Of a stretch of DNA of 50,141 nt, positions 10,509 to 27,184 are shown piece after piece; position 1 is the first letter of the stretch; the number at the start of each line of letters is the position of its first letter. The translations under genes were made by a program, and so were the position numbers. Location: NCBI GenBank assembly GCA_903927955.1, contig CAIYOW010000022.1, forward strand, positions 1-50,141. The letters run 5' to 3'. The DNA is from an uncultured Methylococcaceae bacterium. GTDB lineage: Bacteria; Pseudomonadota; Gammaproteobacteria; Methylococcales; Methylomonadaceae. Below the pieces are notes generated by a model, which ran no database searches, was not told where the DNA came from, and saw only the letters and a list, made by a program, of their open reading frames with translations.

Positions 10509-11105
10509 TTAATTTACGCTATGATGTAATAGAAATTTTTCAAGGTGTTGAGTATTGCAAACTTGAACATTTCTTACCTTATTGCATTGCCCATTAAGTC
10601 GCCTACCTAACTCAGTGTTAAGCTCATCCAGTATTTTTGTGTCTGTCCCGTCTCTGCAGACAATCAATAAGCTGTATTGTGGATCGATATCGACAGATTG
10701 ACCTGTTTTGCGGTAAAGCCTTTCGATCACCGCAATAGAACCTGCCCATTTTTTAAGAAATTCATCCCGGAGACTTTGCCATGCTTCCTCTGCCAATGCC
10801 TTTTTCTGTTTGGACCTATCTTTTTTACTTAGTCCAGCATCGTTATCTATTGCATCAAAACCGGCTTTGGCATAGTTGCTTTTATTTCTGCATTGTTTTA
10901 ATTGTTCGCGAAGATCAGATAATTCAATTAACTGAATATGAAATTCAAGTTCTGAAAAATAATCAACTTTGCTGATGATATTACTATTAAAACCAATGCG
11001 TTCGGCAATGCCTTCAGCATCATCTAGCTTATAGGCACTCAATTCAGATTGTTCGGAGCATTTTGCATGTTCAATTTTTACAAAATAATCTGATTTATCG
11101 AGCAT
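10509..11105 (-). CDS. Small ATPase-partner protein, possible degenerate nuclease
   Basis: 198 residues, not a family I can name. It follows the AAA ATPase gene by 6 bases. The pattern SKVDYF (Asp48) then IQLIELSDL (Glu61, Ser63) and later YSLLIVCRDGTDTK resembles a PD-(D/E)xK core with the catalytic Lys replaced by Ser. The same layout appears in the 158-residue partner of the second ATPase at 25.3 kb, where the Lys is present. A charged helical insert (about 75-125) separates the strands. The region is AT-rich compared with rnr and rlmB, a sign of transfer. Function is probably effector or sensor of the ATPase; this is inference. Confidence 0.6.
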   Translation of the reverse strand: MLDKSDYFVKIEHAKCSEQSELSAYKLDDAEGIAERIGFNSNIISKVDYFSELEFHIQLIELSDLREQLKQCRNKSNYAKAGFDAIDNDAGLSKKDRSKQKKALAEEAWQSLRDEFLKKWAGSIAVIERLYRKTGQSVDIDPQYSLLIVCRDGTDTKILDELNTELGRRLNGQCNKVRNVQVCNTQHLEKFLLHHSVN

Positions 11106-11111
11106 GAGATA

Positions 11112-12503
11112 TTACAAATCGCTAAAGTAGAGTTCTTCATAAGCTAAATTTAATAAGCCTCTGGCTTCAATTAATTGTTGCAGTTTATCTTCTGAATCGA
11201 ACTCAAGCAACTTACCGCCCACATCCACAAAATGCACGGATAGAAAGTCTTCCATGACTTCGATAGCTTGTTTTTTTATTTTAACTTCTAAAGCTTTTAT
11301 TAAGTCGGAACTATGGGTGGTAATAACCACTGTCACCCCTTCTTGGGCCAAAACCAGCAATACCTCCATTAATTTGACTTGCCAATCGGGGTGCAAGTTG
11401 GTTTCTGGTTCATCGATGAAGATAAAAGAGCCTTGGGTGACAATATTATGTTTTAACAATGCTTGAATCATGCCTAAATTGGTCATGCCAAAAGACACCA
11501 AGTTTTTGGAAATTTCTCGACCAGCATTGTCCGTATAGACTAAGCTTCCACCACTAAAAACAAATTCACCTTCAATTGCACCTCCCAATAAATCGGTTGC
11601 TGATTTAAATGAGTTTTCTGTTTTTGTTTTGCTATTTAGGGCAATGTCTAAGTCATAAAAATATTTTGGGACACCTGTTAGTAGATCACTCTTTTTCTTT
11701 CCTATTAATAATGGACGACTAGGATAGTCTTTAGCTCGGTTTAAAGCATCCCTTACTTTCCAATACGCAGGAGATTCAAAAAATATCACACTGGACAATT
11801 TCTTAACATCATCTATAAAATCAGAACCCATTTCAACCGATATTTTTTTATTACCCTCTAATTCAATTTCTAAAAGCCCATCAATATTTAAATGAATTTT
11901 ATCTTGTCCAAAACTAATTAATTGATCAATGTCTGAAATTTGGAAATTTTCTTTCAGTTCGTCTTCAAAATTTATGGCAAAAAAGATGCTATAGTATTTT
12001 TCAGGACTTTTAAGATGAAGTAGAAAAAATCCAAAATTTTTATTAATAGCCTCTGAAATACTTCTTATGGATTCTTTCTTAGAAGGTTTCTTATTTAATT
12101 CATGCAAATAGTCTTCATAGAGTTTTTTTATTGTCTCTACGGTAATCACTTTTGAAATTGCAAAAGCGAGATAATCATCAATTTTCCAGCTACTGGCATC
12201 TTCAAATTCTGTTTTTAATTGCTCGAGGGCAGCCTGTATTTTTGACACTGTTTCAAAGTCATGCGCCCCAATATATTTAATATTACTTTTGAGTATGTCC
12301 AATTGCAGCTGAGTTTGCCGAATCGTTTGATTCACCTTCTCATGATAAACATTCTTGTTGATAACATTTAAAATTGAATAGAGCGATTTTGTAAAAAAGC
12401 TCTTGCCAGTGCCATTGGGGCCAGTAATAACCGTCATGGGGCGGATATTAAAAGTGGCCTCTCTGATTTGCCCCAAATTTTTGACGCTTACATCAAGCTT
12501 CAT
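11112..12503 (-). CDS. AAA/SMC-like ATPase (OLD/RecF-type, AAA_15-like)
   Basis: 463 residues from ATG 12503 (a TTG at 12518 is a less likely start; AGAGA lies before the ATG). Walker A is GPNGTGKS (28-35), Walker B FIFIDEPETNLHP (about 360-372), and the switch His is in VVITTHSSDLI (His397). The region between holds a long helical, Lys/Glu-rich insert that may form a coiled-coil arm, as in overcoming-lysogenisation, RecF and defence ATPases. No TOPRIM domain follows, so it is not a class 1 OLD. It is the first gene of the cassette between rnr and rlmB and noticeably AT-rich. Likely a phage-sensing or effector-regulating ATPase. Confidence 0.8.
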   Translation of the reverse strand: MKLDVSVKNLGQIREATFNIRPMTVITGPNGTGKSFFTKSLYSILNVINKNVYHEKVNQTIRQTQLQLDILKSNIKYIGAHDFETVSKIQAALEQLKTEFEDASSWKIDDYLAFAISKVITVETIKKLYEDYLHELNKKPSKKESIRSISEAINKNFGFFLLHLKSPEKYYSIFFAINFEDELKENFQISDIDQLISFGQDKIHLNIDGLLEIELEGNKKISVEMGSDFIDDVKKLSSVIFFESPAYWKVRDALNRAKDYPSRPLLIGKKKSDLLTGVPKYFYDLDIALNSKTKTENSFKSATDLLGGAIEGEFVFSGGSLVYTDNAGREISKNLVSFGMTNLGMIQALLKHNIVTQGSFIFIDEPETNLHPDWQVKLMEVLLVLAQEGVTVVITTHSSDLIKALEVKIKKQAIEVMEDFLSVHFVDVGGKLLEFDSEDKLQQLIEARGLLNLAYEELYFSDL

Positions 12504-12536
12504 AACGGTTCTCTGCAATATTCAAACAAACAAAAA

Positions 12537-14831
12537 TTAACCCGTTTTAGGCTTTCTTTTCCGTTTCTTCTTGGCTTTGGCTGTTTTGGCGGCGGCGGCA
12601 CCTGCCCCGGTGCTAGCGGCTTTTTTAACAACCCCTTCTTTTTTCACCAGCTCAAAATCCATTTTCTTTTCATCCAAATCCACCCGCACTACCTTGATTT
12701 TTACACTATCGCCTAAGCGGTAGGTGGTGTTGGTGCGTTCGCCCTGCAAGCGGTGGCTGGTTGGGTCAAAATGGAAATAATCTTCGCCTAGATTACTGAT
12801 ATGCACCAAGCCTTCGACAAAAATTTCCGCCAATTCGACAAAAAATCCAAACGAGGTGACGGCGGGGATAATGCCGGTGAATTCTTCGCCGATTTTATCC
12901 ATCATATATTCGCATTTCAGCCAATTGACCACGTCGCGGGTGGCATCGTCGGCACGCCTTTCGTTAGCGGAGCAATGCTCGCCCAGCAGCACCATATCCG
13001 GCACGCCGTAATAGAAGCTGTCAGCTTTTTTGCCTTGCAAACAATGGCGGATGGCACGATGCACCAGCAAATCGGGATAGCGGCGGATAGGCGAGGTAAA
13101 ATGCGCATAAGCCTCCAATGCCAAACCAAAATGACCCTTTAATTCAGGGCTGTAGACGGCTTGTGACAAGGAACGCAGCAATACGGTTTGGATCAGGTGG
13201 GCATCGGGACGGCCTTTAATGCTATTGACCAAATGCATATAATCCAACGGGGCCGGCTCGGCTTCGCCGCCCATTTTTAAGCCCAGTTCGCCCAAAAAGG
13301 TTTTTAGTGCAAATAACTTATCGGAACTGGGGCCTTCGTGGATACGCAACAGCTTGGGCATTTTTTTGCCGTTCAAGAATTTTGCCGCCACGCTGTTGGC
13401 GGTGATCATACATTCTTCAATCAGCTTGTGGGCATCGTTACGGGTGACCGGGACAATTTTGCTGATTTTACGGTTGTCGCCAAAAAGGATACGCGTCTCT
13501 TGGGTGTCAAAATCCATAGCCCCGCGTTGTTCGCGCTTCATCCGCAACACTTGGTACAGCGCGTAAAGCTCTTGCAAATGCTTAAATACCGGCTGATATT
13601 TTGCCTGTAATTCGGCATCGCCATCGACCAGCATTTTAGCCACTTCGGTGTAGGTCAGGCGGGCGTGGGAGTTCATCACCGCTTCCATAAATTTGGCGCG
13701 GGTCACATTGCCATCATGGTCAATCAGCATTTCGCAAACCATGCATAAACGGTCAACATGGGGATTTAACGAACACAAGCCGTTAGACAACACCTCGGGT
13801 AACATTGGAATGACGTTTTCTGGAAAATACACCGACGTGCTGCGGTTTTTGGCTTCGGCATCCAAAGCCGTGCCAATTTGCACATAATGCGAAACATCTG
13901 CTATCGCCACCAGCAATTTCCAGCCACTGGGGGTTTTTTTGGCGTATACGGCATCGTCAAAATCGCGCGCATCTTCGCCGTCGATTGTCACCAAGGGCGT
14001 AGCGCGCAAATCCACGCGCCCCGCTTTGGCCGCTTCCGGCACTTCTGGTGTCAGCGGTTTAATTTCTTCCAACAAGGCTTCTGGCCATTGATAAGGCAAC
14101 TCATGCGAGCGTATAGCCATTTCAATTTCCATGCCGGGCGCAAGGTGGTCGCCCAACACCTCTATAATGCGGCCTATGGGTTGGCGCAATTTGGACGGTT
14201 GCTCAACAATTTCGGCAATCACTATTTGCCCTTGCTTTGCGCCGCCTATGCCATCTTTTTGCAACAGGATAGTTTGCGAAATATTTTTATTATCGGGGAT
14301 GACGTAGGTAAAACCATCTTCCTTATAAAGCCGCCCGACCACCTGATGGGTGTTGCGCTCCAAAATTTCCACCACCGCACCTTCGCGGCGGCCTTTTTTA
14401 TCAATGCCGACCACCCGCACCATAGCACGGTCATTGTGCAGCAGCGGGTTCATTTCGCGCGGGGATAGGAACAAATCGTCTGAACCGTCATCTGGCCGGA
14501 TAAAACCAAAACCATCGGCATGGCCAATAATGCGCCCGACAATCAAGTCCTTGTTATTGACCAAACAATAGCGCTGCCCACGGTTAAACAGCAATTGCCC
14601 GTCTCGCTCCATAGCGCGTAAGCGTCGCCGTAATGCCTCCAACTGAGTCTCATCATCAATCGCAAAGGCTTCAGCTATTTCCTTACGATCCAATGGCTTG
14701 CCAGTTTTTTCAATAAGTTGCAGGATACATTCCCGGCTGGCAATCGGGTTGTCGTATTTTTCAGCTTCGCGCTGAGCGTAGGGGTCGGGTGTCGATTTGA
14801 TATCAACGTCTTTTTTAGACTTCAAGGGCAT
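12537..14831 (-). CDS. rnr: Ribonuclease R
   Basis: 3'-to-5' exoribonuclease of the RNB/RNase II superfamily that degrades structured RNA. The 764-residue protein starts with a winged-helix region (CILQLIEKTGKPLDRKEIAE), then cold-shock domains (GFGFIRPDDGSDDLFLS), the RNB catalytic domain with DGEDARDFDDAVYAKK, whose Asp cluster binds Mg, and AHFTSPIRRYPDLLVHRAI, then an S1 domain (FTGIIPAVTSFGFFVELAE). It ends in a Lys/Ala-rich basic tail typical of RNase R. Immediately downstream, where rlmB is usual, a defence cassette is inserted. Confidence 0.96.
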   Translation of the reverse strand: MPLKSKKDVDIKSTPDPYAQREAEKYDNPIASRECILQLIEKTGKPLDRKEIAEAFAIDDETQLEALRRRLRAMERDGQLLFNRGQRYCLVNNKDLIVGRIIGHADGFGFIRPDDGSDDLFLSPREMNPLLHNDRAMVRVVGIDKKGRREGAVVEILERNTHQVVGRLYKEDGFTYVIPDNKNISQTILLQKDGIGGAKQGQIVIAEIVEQPSKLRQPIGRIIEVLGDHLAPGMEIEMAIRSHELPYQWPEALLEEIKPLTPEVPEAAKAGRVDLRATPLVTIDGEDARDFDDAVYAKKTPSGWKLLVAIADVSHYVQIGTALDAEAKNRSTSVYFPENVIPMLPEVLSNGLCSLNPHVDRLCMVCEMLIDHDGNVTRAKFMEAVMNSHARLTYTEVAKMLVDGDAELQAKYQPVFKHLQELYALYQVLRMKREQRGAMDFDTQETRILFGDNRKISKIVPVTRNDAHKLIEECMITANSVAAKFLNGKKMPKLLRIHEGPSSDKLFALKTFLGELGLKMGGEAEPAPLDYMHLVNSIKGRPDAHLIQTVLLRSLSQAVYSPELKGHFGLALEAYAHFTSPIRRYPDLLVHRAIRHCLQGKKADSFYYGVPDMVLLGEHCSANERRADDATRDVVNWLKCEYMMDKIGEEFTGIIPAVTSFGFFVELAEIFVEGLVHISNLGEDYFHFDPTSHRLQGERTNTTYRLGDSVKIKVVRVDLDEKKMDFELVKKEGVVKKAASTGAGAAAAKTAKAKKKRKRKPKTG

Positions 14832-15077
14832 TTAAACTAAAGGAATAAGAGGGTGGTGGCTACAGTCAGCTTGGGCTATATCATACATGCTTAGGCTATT
14901 GATTAGAATTGATAATAGCACGGCTTAGTCTGGTAAGGGAAAAGCGTCGGGCCTAGGTGGGCAATTCCTGAAAATTAGCCATCCCGAAAATGCTGAAAAT
15001 AGCCAATGAATACGCCGTGTTAATAAGCCTAACGGGGTTATGGGACAGTGCTTGAAGGTAGTGGATGAATACTATAA
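14832..15077. other. Gene-free stretch between rnr and the tRNA-Leu promoter
   Basis: About 245 bases with no convincing reading frame, no conserved RNA fold that I recognise and no strong hairpin. It must hold the rnr promoter on the minus strand, but no clear -35/-10 pair stands out. Confidence 0.5.
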
Positions 15078-15106
15078 TTGACAACTGGGTGAGTACAAAT
15101 TACAAT
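15078..15106 (+). promoter_or_regulatory. Sigma-70 promoter of tRNA-Leu
   Basis: TTGACA at 15078-15083 and TACAAT at 15101-15106 are separated by exactly 17 bases, a near-consensus sigma-70 promoter. Start of transcription would fall near 15113, about 19 bases before the mature tRNA 5' end. Confidence 0.8.
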
Positions 15107-15131
15107 TGTCGTTTAAGTTATATCATATAAC

Positions 15132-15218
15132 GCCGAGATGGTGAAATTGGTAGACACGCCAGCTTCAGGTGCTGGTGGGCGCAAGCTCGTGGAGGTTCAA
15201 GTCCTCTTCTCGGTACCA
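15132..15218 (+). tRNA. tRNA-Leu (anticodon CAG)
   Basis: 87 bases including an encoded CCA. The acceptor arms GCCGAGA and TCTCGGT pair (G1-U72 wobble). The D-loop has the Leu-type AAATTGGTAGACACG, the anticodon stem CCAGC/GCTGG encloses TTCAGGT (anticodon CAG, reads CUG), a long variable arm TGGGCGCAAGCTCGT is present, as expected for tRNA-Leu, and the T-arm is GAGGTTCAAGTCCTC. It is flanked by its own promoter and terminator, so it is a single-gene unit. Confidence 0.96.
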
Positions 15219-15251
15219 AATAGACGTTCAGCAATATCGAAAGCCATACAT

Positions 15252-15286
15252 AAACCTTTGATTACTTATGTAACAAGGGTTTTTTT
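15252..15286 (+). terminator. Rho-independent terminator of tRNA-Leu
   Basis: AAACCTTT (15252-15259) pairs with AAGGGTTT (15275-15282) with one G-U wobble, with a small inner TTAC/GTAA stem, followed by a run of T to 15286. It lies 34 bases after the tRNA. Confidence 0.75.
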
Positions 15287-15604
15287 ATGTCCAAAGAAAA
15301 CCGACGAAAACCAGTAACCGCCTGCAATCATTGCAGTAACATTTACAGTAACTCCTCACCACCTCAAAAAGTGACACCGAGGGTGGCATTGGCTAAAGCG
15401 ACATTTCCAATGTCACCTTGCTTGGGCCACACGTATTGTTATCAGAAAACACAACCCTACCCTATCGCATTGATTTTTATAGCCACCAATCACTTTCAGA
15501 TATTTTAATTTGTCTCGACGGGAAGTTTACCTTTAGCCTATAATTGCACACAATAGCAAGAAGAACCCTATAAATAGTCTTAACTTTATTTGAAAGCGGC
15601 TTAT

Positions 15605-15853
15605 ATGAGCTTAATTAATTTCCCAGACACACCTAGCCGAGCGTTTCTTAATGGTTTTTTTAGTGGCTTATCTGGGTCTGGTATTTTTGAAAAACCCGTT
15701 TTTGTCCGAACCACTAGGATTAAACCAATCCCAATGCCAAGCAGAAGCGATGCCGAAGCACTTGCGTCTGATTGGAGATCAATCGGTAATGATTTCAAAG
15801 CAGTGATAAAGAAACATGGCAAAGTCCGCCGCAAGGCTAAAGCGCCCAGGTAA
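15605..15853 (+). CDS. Small hypothetical protein preceding a DUF2335-like gene
   Basis: 82 residues, no signal peptide or membrane segment, basic C-terminus (KKHGKVRRKAKAPR). The middle contains SRSDAEALASDWRSIGNDF. The 3' end overlaps in another frame the probable ATG (15816) of the DUF2335-type gene, so the two are likely translationally coupled. From memory, small proteins with a SDW-x-x-hG motif often precede DUF2335 genes; role unknown. About 300 bases upstream, after the tRNA terminator, are empty of convincing genes. Confidence 0.5.
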   Translation: MSLINFPDTPSRAFLNGFFSGLSGSGIFEKPVFVRTTRIKPIPMPSRSDAEALASDWRSIGNDFKAVIKKHGKVRRKAKAPR

Positions 15854-16258
15854 TCCGTCAGAATCCACACAAACAGTACAGCAAACGCAACAAATCCTAA
15901 CCATTATCAAGGAGCCATTCCGCCACCGTCGCTTCTAAAGGATTTTGATGCAATACTGCCTGGGTCAGCGGCTAAAATGATTCAGCAGGCACTTGATGAA
16001 ACATCCCATCGTAGACAGCTTGAAAATCGAACATTGCAAGCAAATATAGATGCGCAAAACGCCAATATACAACAAGAAATCAGGAATTCAGAGATCATTT
16101 ATAAATCTGATCTGTATGGAAAGATAATAGGATTGATAGTTTGCGGGTTATGTCTTGGAGCTGCTGTTTATTTAGGTGTTTTAGGCCATGACATTCTGGC
16201 TGGCGCAATAGCGGCCATACCGACAGGTGCTTTAATTAAGGCATTCGTTATAAAGTAG
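15816..16258 (+). pseudogene. DUF2335-type small membrane protein, frameshifted
   Basis: The 3' part reads GAIPPPSLLKDFDAILPGSA, then a coiled region, then two hydrophobic helices (IIGLIVCGLCLGAAVYLGVL and ILAGAIAAIPTGALIKAFV), the DUF2335 pattern. That frame has no ATG, GTG or TTG between its upstream stop (15851-15853) and the PPP motif. A plausible start, ATG 15816 (MAKSAARLKRPGNPSE), is in a different frame, which runs to TAA 15936-15938. One missing base between 15854 and 15936 would join them. It is either a broken gene, a sequencing error, or a programmed -1 shift, though no canonical slippery heptamer is seen. If the N-terminus is lost, translation could begin at ATG 15977 (93 residues). 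Confidence 0.6.
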
Positions 16259-16303
16259 CCATTAACACAACGTTCGCATATCATTTATGTAGGAGTTTTG
16301 CCG

Positions 16304-17233: not shown

Positions 17234-17254
17234 GGCTAGGCTTTTATAGTTTGC

Positions 17255-17284
17255 GCGTGGGCACAAACAGCGTGTCCACCCTAC
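17255..17284. repeat. GTGGGCAC-family hairpin repeat, copy 2
   Basis: GCGTGGGCACAAACAGCGTG then TCCACCCTAC: the GTGGGCAC and GTGTCCAC halves pair with one G-T. It is related to 183-255 and 17561-17591 and lies just beyond the slyX stop. Confidence 0.6.
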
Positions 17285-17311
17285 TGTGCTTTTGCGGCAA
17301 TGTTAATAATG

Positions 17312-17527: not shown

Positions 17528-17560
17528 GCTTAAATAACATTTTATTATATAGGGTAATTG

Positions 17561-17591: not shown

Positions 17592-17684
17592 AATGTAAAA
17601 CCTGACCGCCATCCAAACCCGTAGCTACCGTCTTGAAAGTCAACTTTAAGTAGTCGGGTAGGGTTGATTGGCCGTTAGACAACA

Positions 17685-17715
17685 GGTGGTTTGCTGGCGC
17701 GAAACCACCCTACGC
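17685..17715. repeat. GGTGGTTTGC-AAACCACCCTACGC repeat, copy 1
   Basis: GGTGGTTT and AAACCACC form an 8-bp stem; the tail CCCTACGC is shared with the second copy at 39180-39210. The repeat contains the stop codon (17710-17712) of the GIY-YIG gene, so that gene's C-terminus was set by, or abuts, the repeat. Confidence 0.7.
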
Positions 17716-18903
17716 TTGCACCAACTTGGCTTGTTGGCTGTCATACCGGTAAGCTGTTATAGAGCCATCCCTAATTTTTTCCACCACCTCATCAATAATG
17801 AACAAGGGCACCAAAAACCACTCCCTGGGGGAAATGGGGCTGCCAAAACGGTCACGAATCTGAATATCCAACTTAGCCGGTTCAAAAAAGCGGTGCAGCA
17901 GATTTTCTAGCTTGGTGCGGTTGATGTTATACAGCTCATAAGTGGCGACCACTTCCACATCAGCCATTAAAAATGTCGGGTCAAGCTTGGCGTTTGCCAA
18001 ACGTTTATCCACACTGCCACCCGTCACGCCAATTTTATGCAGCAAATCGGCGGCGGCTTTTATTTCAGGGTGCGCGGATTTGCTTCTCAGCACATAAATA
18101 GTGCCGCTGCCAATATCATCATCCCCTAAAACATCATCAAACAACGGTCTGGCGGCGGGGTCGGTGATGCGCCGTCCGGCATTGTCCTTATATAACGCCT
18201 TTTGTAATGAGCGCAACAACATATTGCTTTCTGTACCATTGTCAAAAATCACCCGCAGCCGTGCATCCCAATGGCCCGATGCATCCTGGGCCAATTCCCC
18301 CCTATCGGCAACCCATGCGGTCTGACCATCGACAATAAAAAATTCGCCCTTATTAATGCTGGCATTTTCTTTAAAACGGAAGGTGTGCCGGATGCCCGCC
18401 TTCAAATCGGCTTGCACATGTGCAAATAGCGGTTTAAAGCTCTCAAAATCAACGCATAAGGAACGCTGGCCTATTTCCTCCGCCGCCTTCTTTTCGGCAA
18501 ACGCCTTAACATGGGTCAGCTGGGTGATGTCCGGCTGATTGCCCGCGCCAGCCATGCCCAACTCAGCCAGCAACACCTCATCATCCCATGCGGCATCGCC
18601 ATTATGCGGCGGCGCGTCATGCGTCAGCAGCCCGTGCTTGTCCAAAGCGGCCAACAGCTCCCTACATTCGCTGGATGATCTAAGCTTATCCAACCTGACC
18701 GCATACAGGCGTTCAAAAATTGGCTTATCTTCGCCGTGCTGCGGCAAGCTGCCGTGCTGTTTGACAAAGCGTTCAATATCTTCAAAACCGGCGATAATGC
18801 GCTGTTCGCGGGGCGTATGGCGGCACACCGCTTTAGCCACCACCGCAATCCCCAGCTCCGCCAGCAAATCGTCGTCATGTTCGGTAAACGCACTGTTAGC
18901 CAC
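17710..18903 (-). CDS. GIY-YIG nuclease domain protein (T5orf172-like)
   Basis: 397 residues. The C-terminal part reads GTIYVLRSKSAHPEIKAAAD, then LLHKIGVTGGSVDKRLANAK and a conserved ENLLHRFFEP, which matches the T5orf172/Mug113 branch of GIY-YIG nucleases (Tyr in IYVLRS, IGVT for the second motif, Arg in KRLANA, Glu/His in the last block). The N-terminal 230 residues hold two similar segments (DDLLAELGIAVVAK and DEVLLAELGMAGAG), perhaps duplicated DNA- or protein-contact modules. It overlaps the helicase stop by 8 bases and probably supplies the cleavage activity of a helicase/methyltransferase set. Its stop lies inside a dispersed hairpin repeat. Confidence 0.8.
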   Translation of the reverse strand: MANSAFTEHDDDLLAELGIAVVAKAVCRHTPREQRIIAGFEDIERFVKQHGSLPQHGEDKPIFERLYAVRLDKLRSSSECRELLAALDKHGLLTHDAPPHNGDAAWDDEVLLAELGMAGAGNQPDITQLTHVKAFAEKKAAEEIGQRSLCVDFESFKPLFAHVQADLKAGIRHTFRFKENASINKGEFFIVDGQTAWVADRGELAQDASGHWDARLRVIFDNGTESNMLLRSLQKALYKDNAGRRITDPAARPLFDDVLGDDDIGSGTIYVLRSKSAHPEIKAAADLLHKIGVTGGSVDKRLANAKLDPTFLMADVEVVATYELYNINRTKLENLLHRFFEPAKLDIQIRDRFGSPISPREWFLVPLFIIDEVVEKIRDGSITAYRYDSQQAKLVQA

Positions 18904-21043
18904 GGGCAGCCTCCGCTTTCATACGCATCAGAAAAGCGACCCCTTCCGCCATACGCTTTTCCCACGGGTCGGCAGCGGTCAATTCTGGCAAACGCCCGCG
19001 CTCCTGCTTAAATTTAAGTGCGCGTCTAGCCAATTCACGCGCCTCTTCAGGAGTCAGGTTGACCCGTTTTCCGGCAATAATCGCTTGCACCTGCCTTAGG
19101 GTGGCCTCGTCCATCGCCTTGGCCAAAATGGCATAGGCGGCGCTGAACGGATTGATATGGTCTATCAGATCAATATCCAAATCACGGACATCCATCGCAT
19201 ATTTTCTGACCCCTTGGATAAACGCCATGCCGCCGCCGACCGGTGCGCCGCCGTCATGGGCAGGCGCATGGCCAGCCTCACTATTGGGGGCATTGTTAGG
19301 GGCATTATTGAGTTCATCAAGCACCCCACTGGCAAAGCCATTGGCAAATCCATGGGCAAACTGTTTCGCCTGTTGGGTCAGGTTAAGCGCGGCAATGGCA
19401 TGTTGCCGCACCGCCTCTTGGTCTTCGGCATCCAGCTCAGGGTATTTGTCTTTAACAATCTTGCCCATGCGCACCTGGGTCAGCTCTTCCGCCACCATTT
19501 CCGTATCAAACAGCCCGCGTTCCAAAGTGGTTTTGTCTTGCACAAACGAGGCAATCACCTCGTTCAAATCATTTTGGCAGATACGCTGCGCGGCACTGCT
19601 TTTCGGCTCTGCCAGCCCTTTAATTTCAATATGGAACTGCCCGGTGTCTTCGTTAATGCCGATATTGTTGGCAGTCGGCTGATAGCCCTCCGCGCCATAA
19701 TCAAAGCCTGCCAGTGGCAGTGCCTGGGGATGTTTGGGGGTAAAATTAAACTTGGGGGTCAGCACTTGCTCCATTAACAGGCTGGCGGCAATGGCTTTTA
19801 AAGTGTCGTTGACCGCATCGGTCACTTTGGCTTCAGCGGCATCCGGCTCGGCAATCAGATTAGTGAACCGTGTCCGCGTTTTGCCGGGGGCATCACGGGT
19901 GGCGCGGCCAATAATCTGGATAATCTCCGTTAGGCTAGAACGGTAGCCAATGGTCAAGGCATGTTCGCACCAAATCCAATCAAAACCTTCTTTTGCCATA
20001 CCCAAGGCAATAATAATGTCTACATGGTCACGGTCATGCTTGTGCGCGGGGTCTTTTAGTGCCGTCAATACTTTGGAATGGCGTTCCGGGCCGTCATCGA
20101 CCAAATCAGCCACTCTTAACAGCCGTCCGTCGGCACAGGCGACAAGATCAAACCCCGTCACCGGGTCTTTGCCTTGCCATTGCCCCAGCGTGTCCAAAAT
20201 CTCGCTGACTTCGGTGGTCTTGCCGCGTTGGGTGCTTTCCCGCGAATTGACATTGGGGATATGGATAATGGTTTTCAGGCGGGTGTCCAACACCGCCGTT
20301 ATTTCATCCAGATACGGGCCGGCGTAAAAATAATAGCCCATATCAAAGGTTTTCAGGTATTGGTAGCCATTAAGCTGCTCATAATAGGTATAAGTCACCG
20401 TCTCAAATTGCGCCTCATCTTCGGGTGACAACACCGCCTCGGCATCACCGCGAAAATAAGAACCGGTCATGGCGACAATATGCACCTTGCCCCGCGCCAT
20501 AAACTGCCCAAGGTGCACACCCAACTTATTGTCGGGATTGGCACTGACATGGTGGAATTCATCCACCGCCAACAAACATTGGTCAAACGGTTCGATACCC
20601 CACTTGTCCACGGCAAAGCGCAGGGTGGCATGGGTGGTCACCAAAATGCGCCCGTCACCGTCCAAAAATGCTTTGACGCTGTTCACTTTGCCGCCGTCTT
20701 CCCCGGGTGCATTGCACAAATTCCATTGCGCCCCTACCTGCCAATCCCAATAAAAACCCGCTTGGCTGAGCGGCTCGTCATTAAAGCTGGCACCGATGGA
20801 TTTTTCCGGCACCACAATAATGGCTTTTTTGATGCCCTGATTATGCAACTTGTCCAAGGCAATAAACATCAGGGCGCGGCTTTTGCCGGAAGCGGGCGGC
20901 GATTTTATCAGCAAATACTGTTCGCCGCGTTTTTCATAGGCGCGTTCTTGCATGGTGCGCATACCTAGCTCATTGGCTTGGGTGGAACGGCCGTTGGCGG
21001 CATAAGTCACCGATACGGAAGGGATGGTGTTAGGTTTGCTCAT
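18896..21043 (-). CDS. DEAD/DEAH-type SF2 helicase of a restriction-like system
   Basis: 715 residues. Motif I SPPASGKS (48-55), motif II LAVDEFHH (DEFH 161-164), motif III IVAMTGSY and motif VI QIIGRATRDAPG define a superfamily 2 translocase of the restriction-endonuclease R-subunit kind. No nuclease motif is evident within it; the overlapping downstream gene encodes a GIY-YIG domain. The C-terminal third is helical and Ala-rich. A DNA methyltransferase gene lies upstream on the same strand. Together these resemble a multi-gene restriction-modification or DISARM-like defence system, though I cannot assign a named type. Confidence 0.85.
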   Translation of the reverse strand: MSKPNTIPSVSVTYAANGRSTQANELGMRTMQERAYEKRGEQYLLIKSPPASGKSRALMFIALDKLHNQGIKKAIIVVPEKSIGASFNDEPLSQAGFYWDWQVGAQWNLCNAPGEDGGKVNSVKAFLDGDGRILVTTHATLRFAVDKWGIEPFDQCLLAVDEFHHVSANPDNKLGVHLGQFMARGKVHIVAMTGSYFRGDAEAVLSPEDEAQFETVTYTYYEQLNGYQYLKTFDMGYYFYAGPYLDEITAVLDTRLKTIIHIPNVNSRESTQRGKTTEVSEILDTLGQWQGKDPVTGFDLVACADGRLLRVADLVDDGPERHSKVLTALKDPAHKHDRDHVDIIIALGMAKEGFDWIWCEHALTIGYRSSLTEIIQIIGRATRDAPGKTRTRFTNLIAEPDAAEAKVTDAVNDTLKAIAASLLMEQVLTPKFNFTPKHPQALPLAGFDYGAEGYQPTANNIGINEDTGQFHIEIKGLAEPKSSAAQRICQNDLNEVIASFVQDKTTLERGLFDTEMVAEELTQVRMGKIVKDKYPELDAEDQEAVRQHAIAALNLTQQAKQFAHGFANGFASGVLDELNNAPNNAPNSEAGHAPAHDGGAPVGGGMAFIQGVRKYAMDVRDLDIDLIDHINPFSAAYAILAKAMDEATLRQVQAIIAGKRVNLTPEEARELARRALKFKQERGRLPELTAADPWEKRMAEGVAFLMRMKAEAARG

Positions 21044-21070
21044 GCGAAAGGTTTATATGTATATGTGGGA

Positions 21071-21157
21071 CTAAACAGCTACCTTGTTTACAGCCTTTCT
21101 TTTAAGCGTTCTAATCTGGTGCTGTTGTTCTGTCATTTCAATGGTAAGGCGGCTCAT
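21071..21157 (-). CDS. 28-residue ORF, possible RHH antitoxin remnant
   Basis: ATG 21157 is preceded by GGAGGA with 9-base spacing, an unusually good ribosome site. The product begins MSRLTIEMTEQQHQ, which is the typical start of ribbon-helix-helix antitoxins (usually 70-80 residues), then diverges (IRTLKRKAVNKVAV) and stops at 21071. It probably is a truncated antitoxin gene left between the methyltransferase and helicase genes. No matching toxin gene is next to it. Confidence 0.4.
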   Translation of the reverse strand: MSRLTIEMTEQQHQIRTLKRKAVNKVAV

Positions 21158-21255
21158 AGTTTTTTATCCTCCGACTTTTTTGGAAGCCAATATGGCACAA
21201 AAATGCAAGCCTGTAAAAAGATACATTTTTATTTGTTTCGCCATTAACCGTCAGG

Positions 21256-23805
21256 TCACGGGGGGGTGGCGGTGGTCATGCGGGTGTACAGGTCAAACAG
21301 TTTTTCTAGCCGTTCGGTGTCGTTTTTAAAGCGCCGGCCGATATAGATGCGTTCCAATACTTCATCGTTGCGTTCATGGGCGTGGCGCAGGTCGTCGGGC
21401 ATTTGCCCGGCGGCGTATAACTCGGCAAGGGTGGCGGGGAAGTGCGCTTCCCGTGCCAGCAAAATAGCTTCGGCACAGCGGGTCAGGTCTTGTTGGTTTT
21501 TTTCGGTCAGCGGGGGCAGCGGGAAGGTGTTCCAGCCTAGGGTGTTGGAGTAGCGGAAATCGGTTTTCAATTTGCCGCAAACCGTGGCAATCCAAACCCA
21601 GTGCAGTTTTGAGGCAATGATCGCCATATTCCATAGCGGGGCATCGTAGAGGGCAAAGGCTAGGTTAGAAATGATTGTTCCCGATGCAACGATGCCAGCG
21701 GGTAAATATTCCCTGCTTTCTGATGACACGCTCGGAACAATAATGGTTAGGGTTTTAGTGCTATTTATTTCCCGCATTTGGTGTGCCCGTGCCGCCATAC
21801 CATTTGTACCTTTATCACGGCTGGTAAGGCGCATGGCCCGAACACCCTCAACGCGTTTGCGTATAGCCGCAACCGCCATTGCTTCTTCTAAATGTTGGTC
21901 TTCTATCCATAAGCAATAGCGTTGTAATCCGCGGATAAATTCGGCGGAGCCATAAATCTGCCGGATAAACTTATCCTGCTGTGCCGCTGACAATTGCAGG
22001 TGGTCGAGTTCTTCGGCATTTAACAATAAATGCCCGCCATCCACAGGCATGTTACCCTTAGGCATATCCGCCAACGCCCCAAACGGCTTGCTGCGTTTGC
22101 CGACAATGACATTTTGCGCCGCCACCAAATAAGCGTTGATATGGGGCACTTGTTTGACACTGCCTTGCTTGTTCTCATCCATGGCAAACAACTGCCGGTG
22201 GTTGCCGGGCTGTTTGGACAGGCCAATAATGGCCACCGTCACGCCCGCATTATGGCTGGCCAAATTGGCCCATTTAAAGCTGGTGTAGGCAAAGGCAATT
22301 TGGTGGCCGGTGTTAAAAATGAGCGGCCATAAAATAGCAACTTGCTGGCCTTGGCAGATGGAGTTGGTGGACACAAAAGCGGCAACGGTGGGGGTGTGGC
22401 TGCCATACTCGGCGGCTTTCATAAACCACCCCGCCACATAATCCAGTGATTTCCAATGGTTGCAATGGCGGTCAAAAATGGCTTTCAGATCAGCTTTTTG
22501 TGCCGGGCTTTGCCAAGTGGACCCCAGATAGGGCGGGTTGCCACAAATGTAGGTTTCCCCGCCTTCATTGTCAAAGTCTATTTCCGCTTGCACTTGCGGC
22601 GGGTCGAACAAATCATCATGCAACACTTGCACGCGGGTGCCGGTGGGTGGGCATATCGCCAGCCAATCCAGCCGCAGCGCGTTGCCGCAGGTGATCCAGT
22701 TATGTGCGTCCAGCGGCAAAAACTCTGCCAGTGCCTGCTGTTGCCCACGGTACAGCACGTCGCATTGGTATTCGGCGATAATCAGCGCCAGCCGCGCCAC
22801 TTCGGCGGAAAAATCCCTCAGTTCTATGCCCCTAAAGTTGGTCAGGGGCAGCACCGAACCCAAATGGGTTTGGTTGAGCCGCTTGTTGGTGTAGTGCATG
22901 CCCAATGCGCCGCGTTCGTCATCATCGGCCACGGCTTGTATCATGGAGCCGAAAATATCGGGGTTGATTTTGGTCCAATCCAGTTTGCCGACGTGGATCA
23001 GGTAGGCGCGGGCTATTTTGCTGAAGCGCGGCGTGGCGGTGCTGCCGGAGAACAGGCCGCCGTTGACATAGGGGAAGCCATCGGCCCAGCGTTTGATGCC
23101 TGCACGGGGGCGGTCGGCCCGTTGGGTGTTCATGGCGCGGAACAGTTCGCTGATGACTTGATGCGTGTCCGTCGCATCTTTGCCGCCCATTTGTTCGATG
23201 GTGGCGGTGAACAGGCCATGGCCATTGAAGATGTCGGTGTCTTCGGCAAAAAAGCAAAAGATCAGCCGCGCCATAAAGTGGTTCAGGTCGTGGCGGCGTT
23301 CCGCCGTGCCCCAATCGGGGTTGGTTTGCAGCAGTGCCAGATACAGCCGGTTGAGGCGGCTGGTGGCGCGGATGTCAAACGAGCTGTCGCGGATTTGCTT
23401 GACGGTGCTGATGCCCGCCAATGCCAAAAACACGCCAAAATGGTTGGGGAAGTCGGGGTATGGGCAAACGATGGGGCCATCGTCGGCGGTCAGGTCTTCC
23501 GCTTCAAAGTCAATGCCGTCGGTTGCCAAGATAAATTTGGCTTTGGCTTTGCGGGTGGCGGGGCTTAGCCTGAGTTTGTCGAGGGTGTCGGTGACGTGCC
23601 CGGGCGGGCAGACGGCGATATGGATGTTGTTGCGTTGCAGCACCGCGCCGGTCATATCCGACTCGTTGCCCACGCCGCTTTTTAGCCGCTTAAGGGTGGT
23701 GGGCTTGTTGCCGAACGCTTCCAAAAACGCATAGGGGAAGTGGTCGGCATCAAACGGCTGTTCCGCCAGTTGGCTGATGGCTTCTTCAATTTCTACGGCG
23801 TTCAA
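21256..23805 (-). CDS. MmeI-like class I SAM-dependent DNA methyltransferase, motif I missing
   Basis: 849 residues, built like the MmeI-type DNA adenine methyltransferases: an N-terminal helical region with LIFCFFAEDTDIF, the linker GALGMHYTN (residues 299-307), PLTNFRGIELRDFSAEVARL (320-339), IAEYQCDVLY, motif IV YICGNPPY (419-426) and a C-terminal target recognition domain ending with GWNTFPLPPLTE. In the family, roughly 60-70 residues containing DPACGSGNFL (SAM motif I) normally sit between the MHYT block and PLTNF. Here only about 12 residues lie there, with the frame kept. The enzyme is therefore probably unable to bind SAM normally. Downstream are the helicase and GIY-YIG genes of the same set. 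Confidence 0.85.
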   Translation of the reverse strand: MNAVEIEEAISQLAEQPFDADHFPYAFLEAFGNKPTTLKRLKSGVGNESDMTGAVLQRNNIHIAVCPPGHVTDTLDKLRLSPATRKAKAKFILATDGIDFEAEDLTADDGPIVCPYPDFPNHFGVFLALAGISTVKQIRDSSFDIRATSRLNRLYLALLQTNPDWGTAERRHDLNHFMARLIFCFFAEDTDIFNGHGLFTATIEQMGGKDATDTHQVISELFRAMNTQRADRPRAGIKRWADGFPYVNGGLFSGSTATPRFSKIARAYLIHVGKLDWTKINPDIFGSMIQAVADDDERGALGMHYTNKRLNQTHLGSVLPLTNFRGIELRDFSAEVARLALIIAEYQCDVLYRGQQQALAEFLPLDAHNWITCGNALRLDWLAICPPTGTRVQVLHDDLFDPPQVQAEIDFDNEGGETYICGNPPYLGSTWQSPAQKADLKAIFDRHCNHWKSLDYVAGWFMKAAEYGSHTPTVAAFVSTNSICQGQQVAILWPLIFNTGHQIAFAYTSFKWANLASHNAGVTVAIIGLSKQPGNHRQLFAMDENKQGSVKQVPHINAYLVAAQNVIVGKRSKPFGALADMPKGNMPVDGGHLLLNAEELDHLQLSAAQQDKFIRQIYGSAEFIRGLQRYCLWIEDQHLEEAMAVAAIRKRVEGVRAMRLTSRDKGTNGMAARAHQMREINSTKTLTIIVPSVSSESREYLPAGIVASGTIISNLAFALYDAPLWNMAIIASKLHWVWIATVCGKLKTDFRYSNTLGWNTFPLPPLTEKNQQDLTRCAEAILLAREAHFPATLAELYAAGQMPDDLRHAHERNDEVLERIYIGRRFKNDTERLEKLFDLYTRMTTATPP

Positions 23806-23915
23806 TGGGGTGTGGGTTATGGGTATGTTGGGTTTTTAGTCGTGTGCCATTGTAACCCGATTGTGGTGTGTGTGAAGCAAAGTGAAGCAGAAGGGAACGG
23901 CAAGCCAAATGATCT

Positions 23916-23942
23916 GGCTTCGGCTACGCTTAGCCAACGTGT
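23916..23942. repeat. Second copy of the GGCTTCGGCTA-GCTYAGCCAACGTG repeat
   Basis: GGCTTCGGCTACGCTTAGCC and the following AACGTGT match the reverse strand of 7876-7902 at about 24 of 27 positions. It sits in the gap upstream of the methyltransferase gene. Confidence 0.6.
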
Positions 23943-23958
23943 TCGGTAATATCCGTTA

Positions 23959-24156
23959 TCAGCTTGCAAACGCCTTAAAAGGCAAAGAAACCATACCTGC
24001 AAGCAGAAAACCCAACATCCATTTCAACACCATAATTTGAGCTTTTAATAGCGACAAGTCCTGATCTATCTTGTTAAATCGGTTGTCATAATCGGCCATT
24101 GCCTTTGCTGTTGTCCTGGCTTTTTCTTCAGAAGCCCTAGCATCTTTATAATGCAT
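23959..24156 (-). CDS. Small coiled-coil membrane protein, DUF1640-like, probably truncated
   Basis: 65 residues: a charged helix (ARTTAKAMADYDNRFNKIDQ) and one C-terminal membrane helix (LKWMLGFLLAGMVSLPFKAF). This is the C-terminal half of DUF1640/CCDC90-like bacterial proteins. Directly upstream, overlapping the toxin stop, is ATGATTATCGAACGTTACGA (MIIERYD), the kind of N-terminus such proteins have, but in another frame with an early stop. The gene therefore looks shortened by a deletion and frameshift. It lies 15 bases after the relE-type toxin stop, so it may be cotranscribed with that pair. Confidence 0.5.
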   Translation of the reverse strand: MHYKDARASEEKARTTAKAMADYDNRFNKIDQDLSLLKAQIMVLKWMLGFLLAGMVSLPFKAFAS

Positions 24157-24171
24157 CGTAACGTTCGATAA

Positions 24172-24444
24172 TCATTTATAAACTCCGCCACGGCTACCTG
24201 CTGTCATGATATAAATAACCAGTTTATTTTCATTAATCTGGTAAATAAAACGATATTGGCCGACCCGCAGACGGTACACGGATTCGCCAGCACCTTGCAT
24301 TGGCTTGATATCGAGCTGGATACGGTCATACGGATTTTGGCGGAGCATTTCTAATTTATCGTAAAAACGTGTTTGCCATTCTGGGGTGAGGGATTGCAAA
24401 AACTTTTTAACCTGTTTATGCAGCTTAAGGGTATAAACAGTCAT
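24172..24444 (-). CDS. RelE/ParE-type toxin
   Basis: 90 residues with the RelE/ParE superfamily fold: an initial YTLKLHKQVKKFLQSL, central MLRQNPYDRIQLDIKPMQG, and the strand-rich end VYRLRVGQYRFIYQINENKL then VIYIMTAGSRGGVYK. The Arg/Tyr residues in YRLRVGQYRF match ribosome-dependent mRNA interferases, though a gyrase-directed ParE-like function cannot be excluded. Its ATG overlaps the antitoxin stop by 4 bases. Confidence 0.85.
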   Translation of the reverse strand: MTVYTLKLHKQVKKFLQSLTPEWQTRFYDKLEMLRQNPYDRIQLDIKPMQGAGESVYRLRVGQYRFIYQINENKLVIYIMTAGSRGGVYK

Positions 24445-24659
24445 TTAAAATCGGTCTTGATCGCTTCCCAATCTTCAAAGTCACTATCATCACCTGCTTG
24501 CAAGCAGGCTTGCAGTGCCTTTATTTGGGTTTGTTCTTCGGGGCTAAGGCTATCGCTATCGTCTTCGAGAAGATGAAAACGGTCTTTGGGCAATAAACGT
24601 AAAAAATTCATCATGTCCCAATAGCTGTTGTCATCCACTTCTAGGCTAATGGTTTTCAT
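24441..24659 (-). CDS. Antitoxin of the RelE-type pair
   Basis: 72 residues starting MKTISLEVDDNSYWDMMNFL, acidic C-terminus (EDDSDSLSPEEQTQ, then DDSDFEDWEAIKTDF) likely to wrap the toxin. Start ATG 24659 is chosen over a longer in-frame opening at 24782 because AAGGG lies just upstream of it and the extra residues look unlike a protein. It overlaps the toxin gene by 4 bases, the usual antitoxin-first arrangement. The complex probably represses the shared promoter. Confidence 0.8.
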   Translation of the reverse strand: MKTISLEVDDNSYWDMMNFLRLLPKDRFHLLEDDSDSLSPEEQTQIKALQACLQAGDDSDFEDWEAIKTDFK

Positions 24660-24694
24660 TATTTTTCCCTTGTTATATTTGGTTACGTTTTTGG

Positions 24695-25180
24695 ATGTGG
24701 TTATCGGCATGGCGACTAACAATCGATAGATGCTCTGGCAATAGTATAAAGTTTCAGACAAAAAATCAAAAATCAAAGGCATTACAAGTGGCTGGTTTTA
24801 TAATAGGCAAGGGTTTGCTGGCAAACCTGAGTGCCAGTACTGCAAATGAGATTGAAGACGTGGGTAAAAGTGCGCTTCGGGAATTGGCTAGTCGGTTATC
24901 GGTGCTGTTGGCCCACTTGCTAAAATGGCAGTATCAACCCAGCCACAGGGAGAGCTGTTGGGAAATAACCATCAAAACCCAACGCCACATCAAACAAGCG
25001 CCCAGTTTAAAAATCAAACTAACTGATGCGGACTGGTTGGAATCGGTTTGGGATGATGCTTTGGTGCTGGCGACCAATGAAACGGGATTGGCTTGCTTTC
25101 CTGAATCATGCCCGTGGGGATATGGGCAAATTTTCTCAACGGATTTTTGGCCCGAAGCTGTGGATGTTGATGCCGATTGA
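24695..25180 (+). pseudogene. DUF29 family remnant
   Basis: The later part is clear DUF29: EIEDVGKSALRELASRLSVL, LLAHLLKWQYQPSHRESCWE, and ETGLACFPESCPWGYGQI. The N-terminus of the family (a D-x-Y-x-W-L motif and a basic helix) is missing from this frame, but YKWLVL can be read in another frame just upstream (around 24787). So the gene appears frameshifted near its start. Any start codon in the current frame overlaps the antitoxin promoter region without a ribosome site. It diverges from the toxin-antitoxin pair. Confidence 0.6.
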
Positions 25181-25322
25181 AATTTGGCCAACATCCTACG
25201 TAAATAGGTGACCGGAAAAGCCATACGTTCCCTGAGCGTAGTAATGTAGCCCGTACGCATGGGAAGCCCTAATAGTTTAATTTTGTTGAAAAAGCATTGC
25301 CCAAGCTCTAATCTTTTTCAGG

Positions 25323-25799
25323 CTATCTAATGATTTCTTTAAATAAATCGATTGTGGTATCATCTTCGCAAAGAAATTGCCTAAGTCTCATGCCGTTTGC
25401 ATCCTCCCATGCTTCTTTCTTCGGCTTATTGGTGTTGGCGTTTTTGGACAAAATCACCACGCCATATTCTTTGTCAGGCTTTGCAGCTGCCAACAATTGT
25501 CTATAGTTGTTGTGCTGCTTGGTGGCACTAAGCTGTTCAAGAGCCGTAGGGTAATCAGTGCCTTTAAGCTCCACAAGAAACGCATAGCGCTTAGTGGATG
25601 ATTGGTAGAAATATGAGCAATCGCACTTTTTAGTGTTATTTTCGGTGATTAAATGCGCATCGACTTTAATTTTTATAGCCTCGCCATTGGTCGGCGGCGT
25701 AAGCTTCACGCCTTTGCCCTTCTCTTGATAATGAAGTGACTGGTGTTCGCAATCTTCTTTACCCAGCGTGGCAAGTTGCTCCCTTACCGCATTGATCAT
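25323..25799 (-). CDS. Small PD-(D/E)xK nuclease-like partner of the ATPase
   Basis: 158 residues from ATG 25799, which overlaps the ATPase stop as ATGA, a strong coupling signal (a GTG at 25814 is possible). The core KKCDCSYFY (Asp60) followed by AFLVELKGTDYP (Glu77, Lys79) is a recognisable PD-(D/E)xK pattern. A helix containing ALEQLSATKQHNNYRQLL and a strand EYGVVILSKN follow. This suggests a nuclease effector controlled by the ATPase. The same layout, with Lys replaced by Ser, is seen in the gene at 10509-11105. Confidence 0.6.
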   Translation of the reverse strand: MINAVREQLATLGKEDCEHQSLHYQEKGKGVKLTPPTNGEAIKIKVDAHLITENNTKKCDCSYFYQSSTKRYAFLVELKGTDYPTALEQLSATKQHNNYRQLLAAAKPDKEYGVVILSKNANTNKPKKEAWEDANGMRLRQFLCEDDTTIDLFKEIIR

Positions 25800-27184
25800 C
25801 CACGATGCTCCCACTCAATGTCACGCATCCGCTCATACAACCCGTTAATGCGGTCAAACGGTTCGGTAAATTCTGCCTCATCAATCAAGCCTGACGTATG
25901 GACTATGTTTTTTACAGAACCGTCGGGGTCAAAGTGGTAAGCGCAGACCTGTTTTTCCAGCGGCACCATGTTTGGATGATCGGCCAATAGCGCCTGTACA
26001 TCGGCATCATCTGGAAATTGTTTTTTAAGCCCTTGCAGCTTAATCAGGTTGTTGATGCAGGATAAAATGTACGGGCTATGGGTGATCAGTATCACTTTTA
26101 AGTCTTGGTTGATGGCATCAGCCAGCACATTGATCAAATCCCTTTGTGCCTCTGGATGCAGGTGTGATTCTGGCTCATCAATAATGACCAGGCTATTTGG
26201 CTCAACCCAATACTTAAGGCCCATTAAAATGGGTGAGGTGTCTGTCACCATGGAAGAGGCAAGGTGAAGGCGGATTTTATTTTCTGAGTGCCTGACTTGG
26301 TAGCGGAAATCAGGGAATGCGCCTTCAGGCTGCTCAACTAAAAATCGCTCTTCACCGTACAACAGTTTTTCTAATTTGGCGGCAATGGTTGACAAAGCAT
26401 TTTCTTTTGAAGTGTCTAGGTCGTAAAGATGCCGAATAAAATCCTCGGTTGGCCTGTCAAACCGAATGAGCGACCCCATCTTTCGGGCATTATTGCCTTT
26501 ACTGTCGAAAAATTCAGGAATTGACCTTATTCCACCCAATGCATTATTGCCTTTAAATGGAACCGATCCTAAGCCAACATGCTCATCGGCTCTTGCACGG
26601 TATAGCTCTTTATAGGTCAGCATAAAATTAGAGCGGGCCGCAGGAAAATAATCGACTTTCCCATCACCATAAGCCGAAAAGACACTCCAACAAAACAAGA
26701 ATAAAATGCTACCAAGTAAAATATCTTTTTGAGCATTTATAGCCGCGTTTGTATTTTTAATTGCATCATTCAAACCAATTTCTAACCACTGTTCATCCAG
26801 ATTGGGAATATCTGAATAACAGATAGTCGTGTTATCAAACATATCGCTATCATCATTAAAAAATTCACCAAGCCTATCCTTAAATAATTCCGCATGTAAA
26901 TTGACCAATGCGGGGATTACTTGCTGTATAGAAGCCGGGGTCAGTGTTTGCAAAAGCAACAAAGCTTCTTCTGCGGTACTGACATCCCTGCCAAAAAATG
27001 TGTTAACAAAGCGATTGTCATAACTAAGACTACTGTCGATAATAGTCATGCGGCTCTGCAAACCATAAATCACCTTAGCCAGATAGCTTTTTCCGGTGCC
27101 ATTCGGCCCCACAAAAACAGTCAGTCCGCCCAATTCAACGGTAGCTTCTTTGATTGGCCCTAGGTTCGTCACTGAAATTTTCAT
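25796..27184 (-). CDS. AAA/SMC-like ATPase of a two-gene defence module
   Basis: 462 residues. Walker A GPNGTGKS (26-33), Walker B LVIIDEPESHLHPEA (332-346) and switch His in VILITHSPYIL (His369). The N-terminus ISVTNLGPIKEATVELGGLT and overall length parallel the ATPase at 11112-12503 (SVKNLGQIREATFN), so the two are probably homologous. The middle contains a hydrophobic segment SILFLFCWSVFSAYG, unusual for this class. It is coupled to the small nuclease-like gene. hemN ends 61 bases upstream of it on the same strand, so read-through from the hem/ccm operon is possible. Confidence 0.8.
   Translation of the reverse strand: MKISVTNLGPIKEATVELGGLTVFVGPNGTGKSYLAKVIYGLQSRMTIIDSSLSYDNRFVNTFFGRDVSTAEEALLLLQTLTPASIQQVIPALVNLHAELFKDRLGEFFNDDSDMFDNTTICYSDIPNLDEQWLEIGLNDAIKNTNAAINAQKDILLGSILFLFCWSVFSAYGDGKVDYFPAARSNFMLTYKELYRARADEHVGLGSVPFKGNNALGGIRSIPEFFDSKGNNARKMGSLIRFDRPTEDFIRHLYDLDTSKENALSTIAAKLEKLLYGEERFLVEQPEGAFPDFRYQVRHSENKIRLHLASSMVTDTSPILMGLKYWVEPNSLVIIDEPESHLHPEAQRDLINVLADAINQDLKVILITHSPYILSCINNLIKLQGLKKQFPDDADVQALLADHPNMVPLEKQVCAYHFDPDGSVKNIVHTSGLIDEAEFTEPFDRINGLYERMRDIEWEHRG

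Follow-up and report, generated by a model that had tools for sequence, protein, structure and literature searches.

Can a small protein that lacks the catalytic lysine of the PD-(D/E)xK nucleases still act as the effector of an anti-phage system? The question is raised by a 50,141-nucleotide stretch of DNA from an uncultured Methylococcaceae bacterium (contig CAIYOW010000022.1 of assembly GCA_903927955.1; "the window" hereafter), in which two ATPase genes are each paired with a gene for a small protein: pair 1 (ATPase1 and small1, 10509-12503) and pair 2 (ATPase2 and small2, 25323-27184; Table 1). The original prediction, made from the letters of this DNA without database searches, took the pairs for two divergent copies of one undescribed defence module, in which one small protein may be a nuclease and the other either inactive or reliant on another residue. 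Our analysis instead points to two related yet separate pairs in one methane-oxidising bacterium, both of an anti-phage kind that has been described recently, and we suggest that the presumed nuclease of the small1 branch may cut by means of a rearranged active site.

Pairs of an ATPase sensor and a small nuclease form a large, little-characterised class of defence systems, and nuclease calls within it lean on the ExK motif. A mostly lysine-less family, carried in loci of the temperate-phage type and retaining strict acidic residues together with another lysine, is a natural test of which residues such an effector needs. Motif-based annotation may wrongly label effectors of this sort inactive.

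Two related ATPases whose partners show no detectable homology

The four open reading frames are present at the coordinates first proposed, as are the motifs on which the prediction was built: NLGQIREAT and NLGPIKEAT, GPNGTGKS and IDEPE..LHP in the ATPases, and KVDYF/KCDCSY and IELSD/VELKG in the small proteins. In both pairs the small gene lies immediately downstream of the ATPase gene, after a 6-nucleotide gap in pair 1 and with a 19-nucleotide overlap in pair 2. ATPase1 is ABC/OLD-like, with Walker A (GPNGTGKS), Walker B (IFIDEPE) and an H-loop (TTHS), and matches the Pfam families AAA_15 (7.6e-20) and AAA_21 (2e-19); ATPase2 matches AAA_15 (2e-21). Walker A, the Walker B glutamate and the H-loop are intact in both, and the P-loop, DEPE and HS residues are invariant in all nine ATPases aligned. 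Neither small protein matched a Pfam family.

The two ATPases are 22% identical over nearly their full length (blastp, 68.9 bits, E=6e-17), and profiles of three rows each align over 77 columns around Walker B (hhalign, E=1.4e-18). Judged by sequence, they are homologous, with a similarity far above chance. No homology was detectable between small1 and small2, either by blastp (E=0.73) or by hhalign comparison of their profiles (probability 0.15%), the latter being a weak test because one profile holds three rows only. The notion of two divergent copies of a module therefore survives for the ATPases and for the way the genes are ordered, but not demonstrably for the small proteins, whose common layout holds at the level of motifs and not of sequence homology. 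The small proteins belong to two separate families, and the pairs cannot be demonstrated to be copies of a single module. A recent duplication of the module within this genome was rejected because the ATPases are so far apart and both have far nearer kin in other genomes (69% identity for ATPase1, in Methylobacter; 63% and 58% for ATPase2).

An invariant acidic set and helix lysine in the small1 family

The difference at the catalytic lysine is real. Small2 has a canonical active-site motif, D65...E82-L-K84 with Q94-x-x-x-T98, whereas small1 reads E61-L-S63, with serine at the usual place of the lysine. Among 33 distinct proteins of the small1 family (here and below, L numbers denote loci), D28, D48, E61 and D64 are invariant, and K119 is present in all 32 that reach that position; the frame of L072 stops before K119 and is left out of counts for that residue. 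Position 63 is occupied by S in 21, T in 6 and K in 6. Duplicates and the fragments L002, L005/L010/L013, L033, L073 and L077 do not enter this count, the short L024 (149 residues) is kept, and several loci from the profile search, whose sequences are identical to those of named genomes already in the set, were counted once in alignments. A later scan of viral contigs added five further distinct proteins (L087, L088, L089, L092 and L093; L090 and L091 equal L089 and were counted once), none of them more than 36% identical to the proteins already counted, and all five keep D28, D48, E61, S63, D64 and K119. In the combined set of 38, position 63 is S in 26, T in 6 and K in 6, the four acidic residues are present in 38/38, and K119 is present in all 37 that extend to it.

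Because S or T stands at position 63 in 32 of 38 family proteins, decay of small1 peculiar to the window is rejected: the serine is a trait of the family and not the defect of one copy. Between the alternatives first offered, inactivity and the use of another residue, the invariance of D48, E61, D64 and K119 favors the latter without proving it. Across the 27 S/T proteins of the 33-protein set, whose pairwise identity has a median of 31% and a minimum of 13%, D28, D48, E61, D64 and K119 are the sole invariant columns among 165 that are well filled, so that K119 is their only invariant basic residue.

The six lysine bearers comprise one symbiont-type clade (L008, L027, L028, L029 and L032) and the distant HEC-02B-type protein L012. 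The symbiont-type sisters read VDYxE...LIE[LMP]KD, a canonical motif with 13-residue spacing. Because the HEC-02B-type small proteins of genome G136 (L012/L080) and of L081 hold both ExK and a helix K-x-x-x-[S/T], a simple evolutionary route suggests itself, in which the strand lysine would have been lost while the helix lysine stayed. In a tree of 32 ATPases (fragments L032, L072 and L079 left out) the lysine clade stands beside L071, which has S, with support 94/92, and at least three changes of the lysine are needed when the long-branched L011, L012 and L014 are included. As for the helix position in more distant proteins, the ExK partner L011 has Lys at the aligned place, L015, L017 and small2 read Q-x-x-x-[S/T] by eye, and L037, likewise by eye, is without Lys there.

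A model of small1 built from 20 sequences is confident (predicted local distance difference test, pLDDT, 89.5; predicted template modelling score, pTM, 0.85). It has strands at residues 8-12, 19-26, 49-53, 56-63, 143-150 and 177-184 and helices at 66-87, 94-134 and 156-173. D48 opens strand 49-53, E61 and S63 end strand 56-63, and K119 lies within the long helix that follows; the first three are placed as in PD-(D/E)xK proteins, and the strand-strand-helix-strand order is compatible with that fold. From the motif, the strand order and the kinship to ExK-bearing sisters we infer that small1 has a PD-(D/E)xK-type fold. A single-sequence model of small2 was unusable (pLDDT 38).

Relation to known systems

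The two-gene kind is already known, and the claim of an undescribed family fails because WonAB, PD-T4-4 and the "OLD-ABC ATPase + novel REase" operon have been described. WonAB, described in 2025 from the WASA-1 prophage of Vibrio cholerae, pairs an ABC ATPase with a small protein of the PD-(D/E)xK type; defence was shown experimentally and needs both genes, WonB K71A and ATP-site variants of WonA abolish it, and the toxicity of WonB depends on WonA (PMC12137116). Its authors link WonAB to PD-T4-4 and to the "OLD-ABC ATPase + novel REase" operon and raise the possibility of a wider family in which ATPase sensors are coupled to nuclease effectors (PMC12137116). The likeness to our pairs, drawn from the published description, lies in an ABC ATPase followed by a small PD-(D/E)xK-type gene and, for members of the small1 family, in carriage by prophage-type loci. 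WonAB shuts down translation. WonB is of 16.1 kDa and small1 of 198 residues. A further difference is that WonB needs Lys71, the ExK lysine, which is present in small2 but replaced in small1 and in most of its family. A toxin-antitoxin reading of the pairs is not favored, since WonA is required for the toxicity of WonB (PMC12137116).

We class pair 2 as PD-T4-4-like and pair 1 as a distant HEC-02/WonAB-like family. The best PADLOC matches of pair 2 are PD-T4-4_A (2.6e-37) and PD-T4-4_B (3.2e-6), a distant likeness whose E values stand without a family threshold because the accepted cut-offs are not displayed. All three small2-family members match PD-T4-4_B at E<=0.1, and the canonical ExK of small2 is a further point of likeness. 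ATPase1 also matches PD-T4-4_A (5.9e-27), while small1 has no match to PD-T4-4_B up to E=1. PD-T4-4, an Escherichia coli system (PMC9519451), is listed with PF13175 and a PD(D/E)XK nuclease in PMC10952713.

Nearest to pair 1 is the PADLOC candidate system HEC-02 (HEC-02A 1.9e-29, HEC-02B 1e-4), of which L080 is a strong member (5.9e-66). At E<=0.1, six of 20 family members match the HEC-02B model PDLC04229 and 3, 2, 1, 1 and 1, possibly overlapping, match others. The helix K-x-x-x-[S/T] is common to small1 and to the HEC-02-type small proteins of L012/L080 and L081. However, the latter keep the ExK lysine where small1 has E-x-S, and their ATPases are shorter (344 residues in L080 and 367 in L081 against 463 in the window); the size of about 340-370 residues for HEC-02 ATPases comes from these two loci and the HEC-02A profile lengths and is not the authors' definition. 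L081 is itself a third pair in the window's own genome (contig C117), HEC-02-like, with its 367-residue ATPase and a small D...EVK protein of 177 residues.

A deeper, phage-rich S-variant branch (L049, L087, L089, L092 and L074) matches PHROG 34018, a phage family of unknown function, at 8e-19 to 4e-109; at E<=0.01 the family was matched by none of window small1, L046, L047 and L028. PHROG 34018 thereby gains a likely partner, the ATPase, and a candidate active site. The ATPases of PARIS (AriA), Septu (PtuA) and Gabija (GajA) belong to the same superfamily as ATPase1 and ATPase2. Their partners are other nucleases (TOPRIM, HNH), and neither small1 nor small2 matches the PADLOC models of these partners up to E=1. 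Distant ATPases in L038-L044 (Bacteroidota and one Lachnospiraceae bacterium) are followed by proteins that look HNH-like by eye (CxxC...H..N), that is, Septu-like pairs.

Proposed mechanism and its alternatives

We propose that each pair is a module of the WonAB / PD-T4-4 / HEC-02 kind, in which an ATPase licenses an effector. The ATPase, of the ABC type and probably dimeric, would sense infection and switch on or position a small PD-(D/E)xK-type nuclease, with an outcome that is abortive-infection-like or phage-excluding; by analogy with WonAB, it is most likely the ATPase that senses and licenses and the small protein that acts as effector. Pair 2 would work with its canonical active site (D65, E82-x-K84 and Q94). 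In pair 1, the metal would be bound by D28, D48, E61 and D64, and the positive charge would come, in place of the beta-3 lysine, from the invariant K119, facing the active site from the following helix. The place of K119 would be that of the Q in QxxxY, the helix motif of RecB/Cas4 nucleases. Migration of the lysine or of a carboxylate is documented in the PD-(D/E)xK superfamily (PMC1189080). Taken as a whole, with both pairs as ATPase-licensed nucleases and pair 1 active through a relocated lysine, we give this explanation an even chance. Somewhat more tentatively, we assign pair 1 to a branch of ATPase-gated nucleases that is carried in part by phages and in which the catalytic lysine has been relocated, giving a D28/D48/E61/D64/K119 site that annotation demanding ExK would call dead.

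Several points weigh against this proposal. All six lysine-bearing relatives keep K119 as well, so that it could be structural, and the distant ExK partner L014 has Asn at the aligned helix place. The motif is named as QhxxY in PMC4625639, where a printed reviewer remark states that QxxxY mutants keep activity, and K119 is less likely to be essential on that account. Loss of function in WonB K71A (PMC12137116) implies that loss of the lysine may mean loss of catalysis.

The last point leads to the main rival for pair 1, in which small1 is a PD-(D/E)xK protein that has lost catalysis but still binds metal or nucleic acid, and the pair a sensor or inhibitor (of replication or translation, for example) that acts without cleavage. 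Replacement of the lysine in most of the small1 family agrees with this, as does the Cas4-derived TP1, which shows that members of the nuclease group that are probably inactivated can be retained for other roles (PMC4625639). However, the sole invariant residues of the S/T proteins are four acids and one lysine, the pattern expected of an active site, and the lysine-bearing relatives share with them both the ATPase partner and the order of the genes. In dead enzymes the acidic pair is usually lost. We regard a dead-nuclease sensor as unlikely, at about half the weight of the proposal as a whole.

Less probable still is that small1 is some other alpha/beta enzyme or an adaptor, its D...ExS-D motif a mere resemblance. 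The structural searches speak for this and against our proposal: Foldseek with the small1 model returned nothing at E<=0.001 in PDB (best 0.28) or BFVD (best 0.14), there was no solved-structure or Pfam match of note, with solved-structure hits only at E 0.17 or worse, and window small1 belongs to no Pfam, NCBIfam or PHROGs family, its sole profile match being the weak one to HEC-02B (1e-4). That same HEC-02B similarity, together with the canonical motif and spacing of the symbiont-type sisters and the strand order of the model, argues the other way.

Distribution and loss

Searches with the ATPase found pair 1 in Methylococcales, in symbionts of Bathymodiolus and the like, in Vibrio and in viral contigs. 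In a class-wide sample, ATPase1 was matched at E<=1e-12 in 6 of 369 genomes, and a single-sequence search of the class placed pair 1 in two. Within the order, the small-protein profile alone detected members of the small1 family in 21 of the 301 genomes, the window's own included. That homologues of the small proteins should lie beside ATPases was borne out, with an ATPase directly upstream in 19 of these 21 hits (partial in L072); the other two are L073, with an ATPase remnant, and the stop-ridden fragment L077, with none detected. In both L005 and L032 the ATPase reading frame is split. Decayed copies of pair 1 with interrupted frames (L005 in genome G097, L077 in G554) point to repeated loss of the module.

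ATPase2 was matched at E<=1e-15 in 8 of 201 genomes besides the window's own. The two close relatives (63% and 58%) each have the small protein beside them, one match is a 40-residue stub (L056), and five are at 31-36% identity; a small ELK protein lies downstream in L053, L054, L055 and L057, and a script found none in L058. ATPase2 had no match in phages or viral contigs, nor the small2 profile in viral contigs. On plasmids, a hypothetical protein adjoins the ATPase in all four loci examined among 12 ATPase matches listed, and single-sequence searches with small1 or small2 matched nothing. Scans limited to six short peptide patterns gave no match for small1 in genome contigs or small2 in viral contigs, and the Vibrio-type ATPase1 (L030) had none in plasmids or phages at strict limits.

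Genomic context

Pair 1 lies between two genes that we take to be rnr and rlmB, as in several methanotrophs. Both neighbors are found in L018, L019, L020, L022 and L023, whereas L021 and L034 have rnr alone; the short loci of other relatives in the order (L065-L068, L071) showed neither gene. Elsewhere the family sits in loci of prophage type. In L031, L046 and L047 (61-84 nucleotides) and in L049 (463 nucleotides), the gene upstream of the pair encodes a transcriptional repressor of phage type (PHROGs), with CI-like models named for L046 and L049, and a Q-like antiterminator lies upstream in L088 and L089. L087 has a portal gene downstream on the opposite strand and also a terminase downstream, and near the pair of L092 are an endolysin and a transposase. 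The one gene tested in L093 was not telling, and one of two neighbors of L030 tested with Pfam is a KAP NTPase; these tests covered ten chosen proteins in each of three runs. Spots beside repressor, Q or portal genes are usual for lysogenic-conversion genes, and the placement of S/T members there supports, but does not prove, a role in phage exclusion.

A housekeeping role of pair 1 in the host instead of defence, such as RNA quality control, would suit the rnr-rlmB gene string of the window, L018-L023 and L034, but is very improbable given the patchy distribution of the pair in order and class, the decayed remnants left at that site (L033/L073, L077), the relatives in prophage-type loci, and the location of the pair among different genes in two genomes of symbiont type (L008, L009).

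Table 1. Coordinates of the two pairs and of the genes around pair 1
Feature	Position	Strand	Description
rlmB	7978..8718	-	right border of pair-1 site
AIPR-family protein	8724..10439	-	between small1 and rlmB; AIPR 4.9e-44, AbiU 3.9e-44
small1	10509..11105	-	198 residues; putative PD-(D/E)xK-fold effector, S/T variant
ATPase1	11112..12503	-	463 residues from ATG; a TTG start would extend it to 12518
rnr	12537..14831	-	left border of pair-1 site in several Methylococcales
small2	25323..25814	-	163 residues; putative PD-(D/E)xK nuclease
ATPase2	25796..27184	-	462 residues; ABC/OLD-like, PD-T4-4_A-like

The AIPR/AbiU-like gene, which has weak Mrr_cat similarity, had no homologue in loci L001-L079 (phmmer, E<=1e-8). 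It looks like a later insertion, because small1 adjoins rlmB in those relatives that have rlmB at hand.

In the same-genus genome G523 both modules are reduced to stubs at the same two sites. The rnr-rlmB site (L073, with an identical stretch in L033) retains a piece of ATPase1 that is 91% identical over residues 1-65 and a 45-residue tail of small1; the other (L056) retains the first 40 residues of ATPase2 (95%) beside hemN.

Between the pairs, at 17710-23805, an MmeI-like type IIG methylase, a DEAD-type helicase and a GIY-YIG/T5orf172 protein stand in a row and may be a further defence cluster; the N-terminal domain of the methylase shows no ExK by eye, and the helicase and GIY-YIG/T5orf172 genes overlap by 8 nucleotides. 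At 24172-24782 lies a pair of small genes that, by eye, resembles a RelE/ParE-type toxin and its partner.

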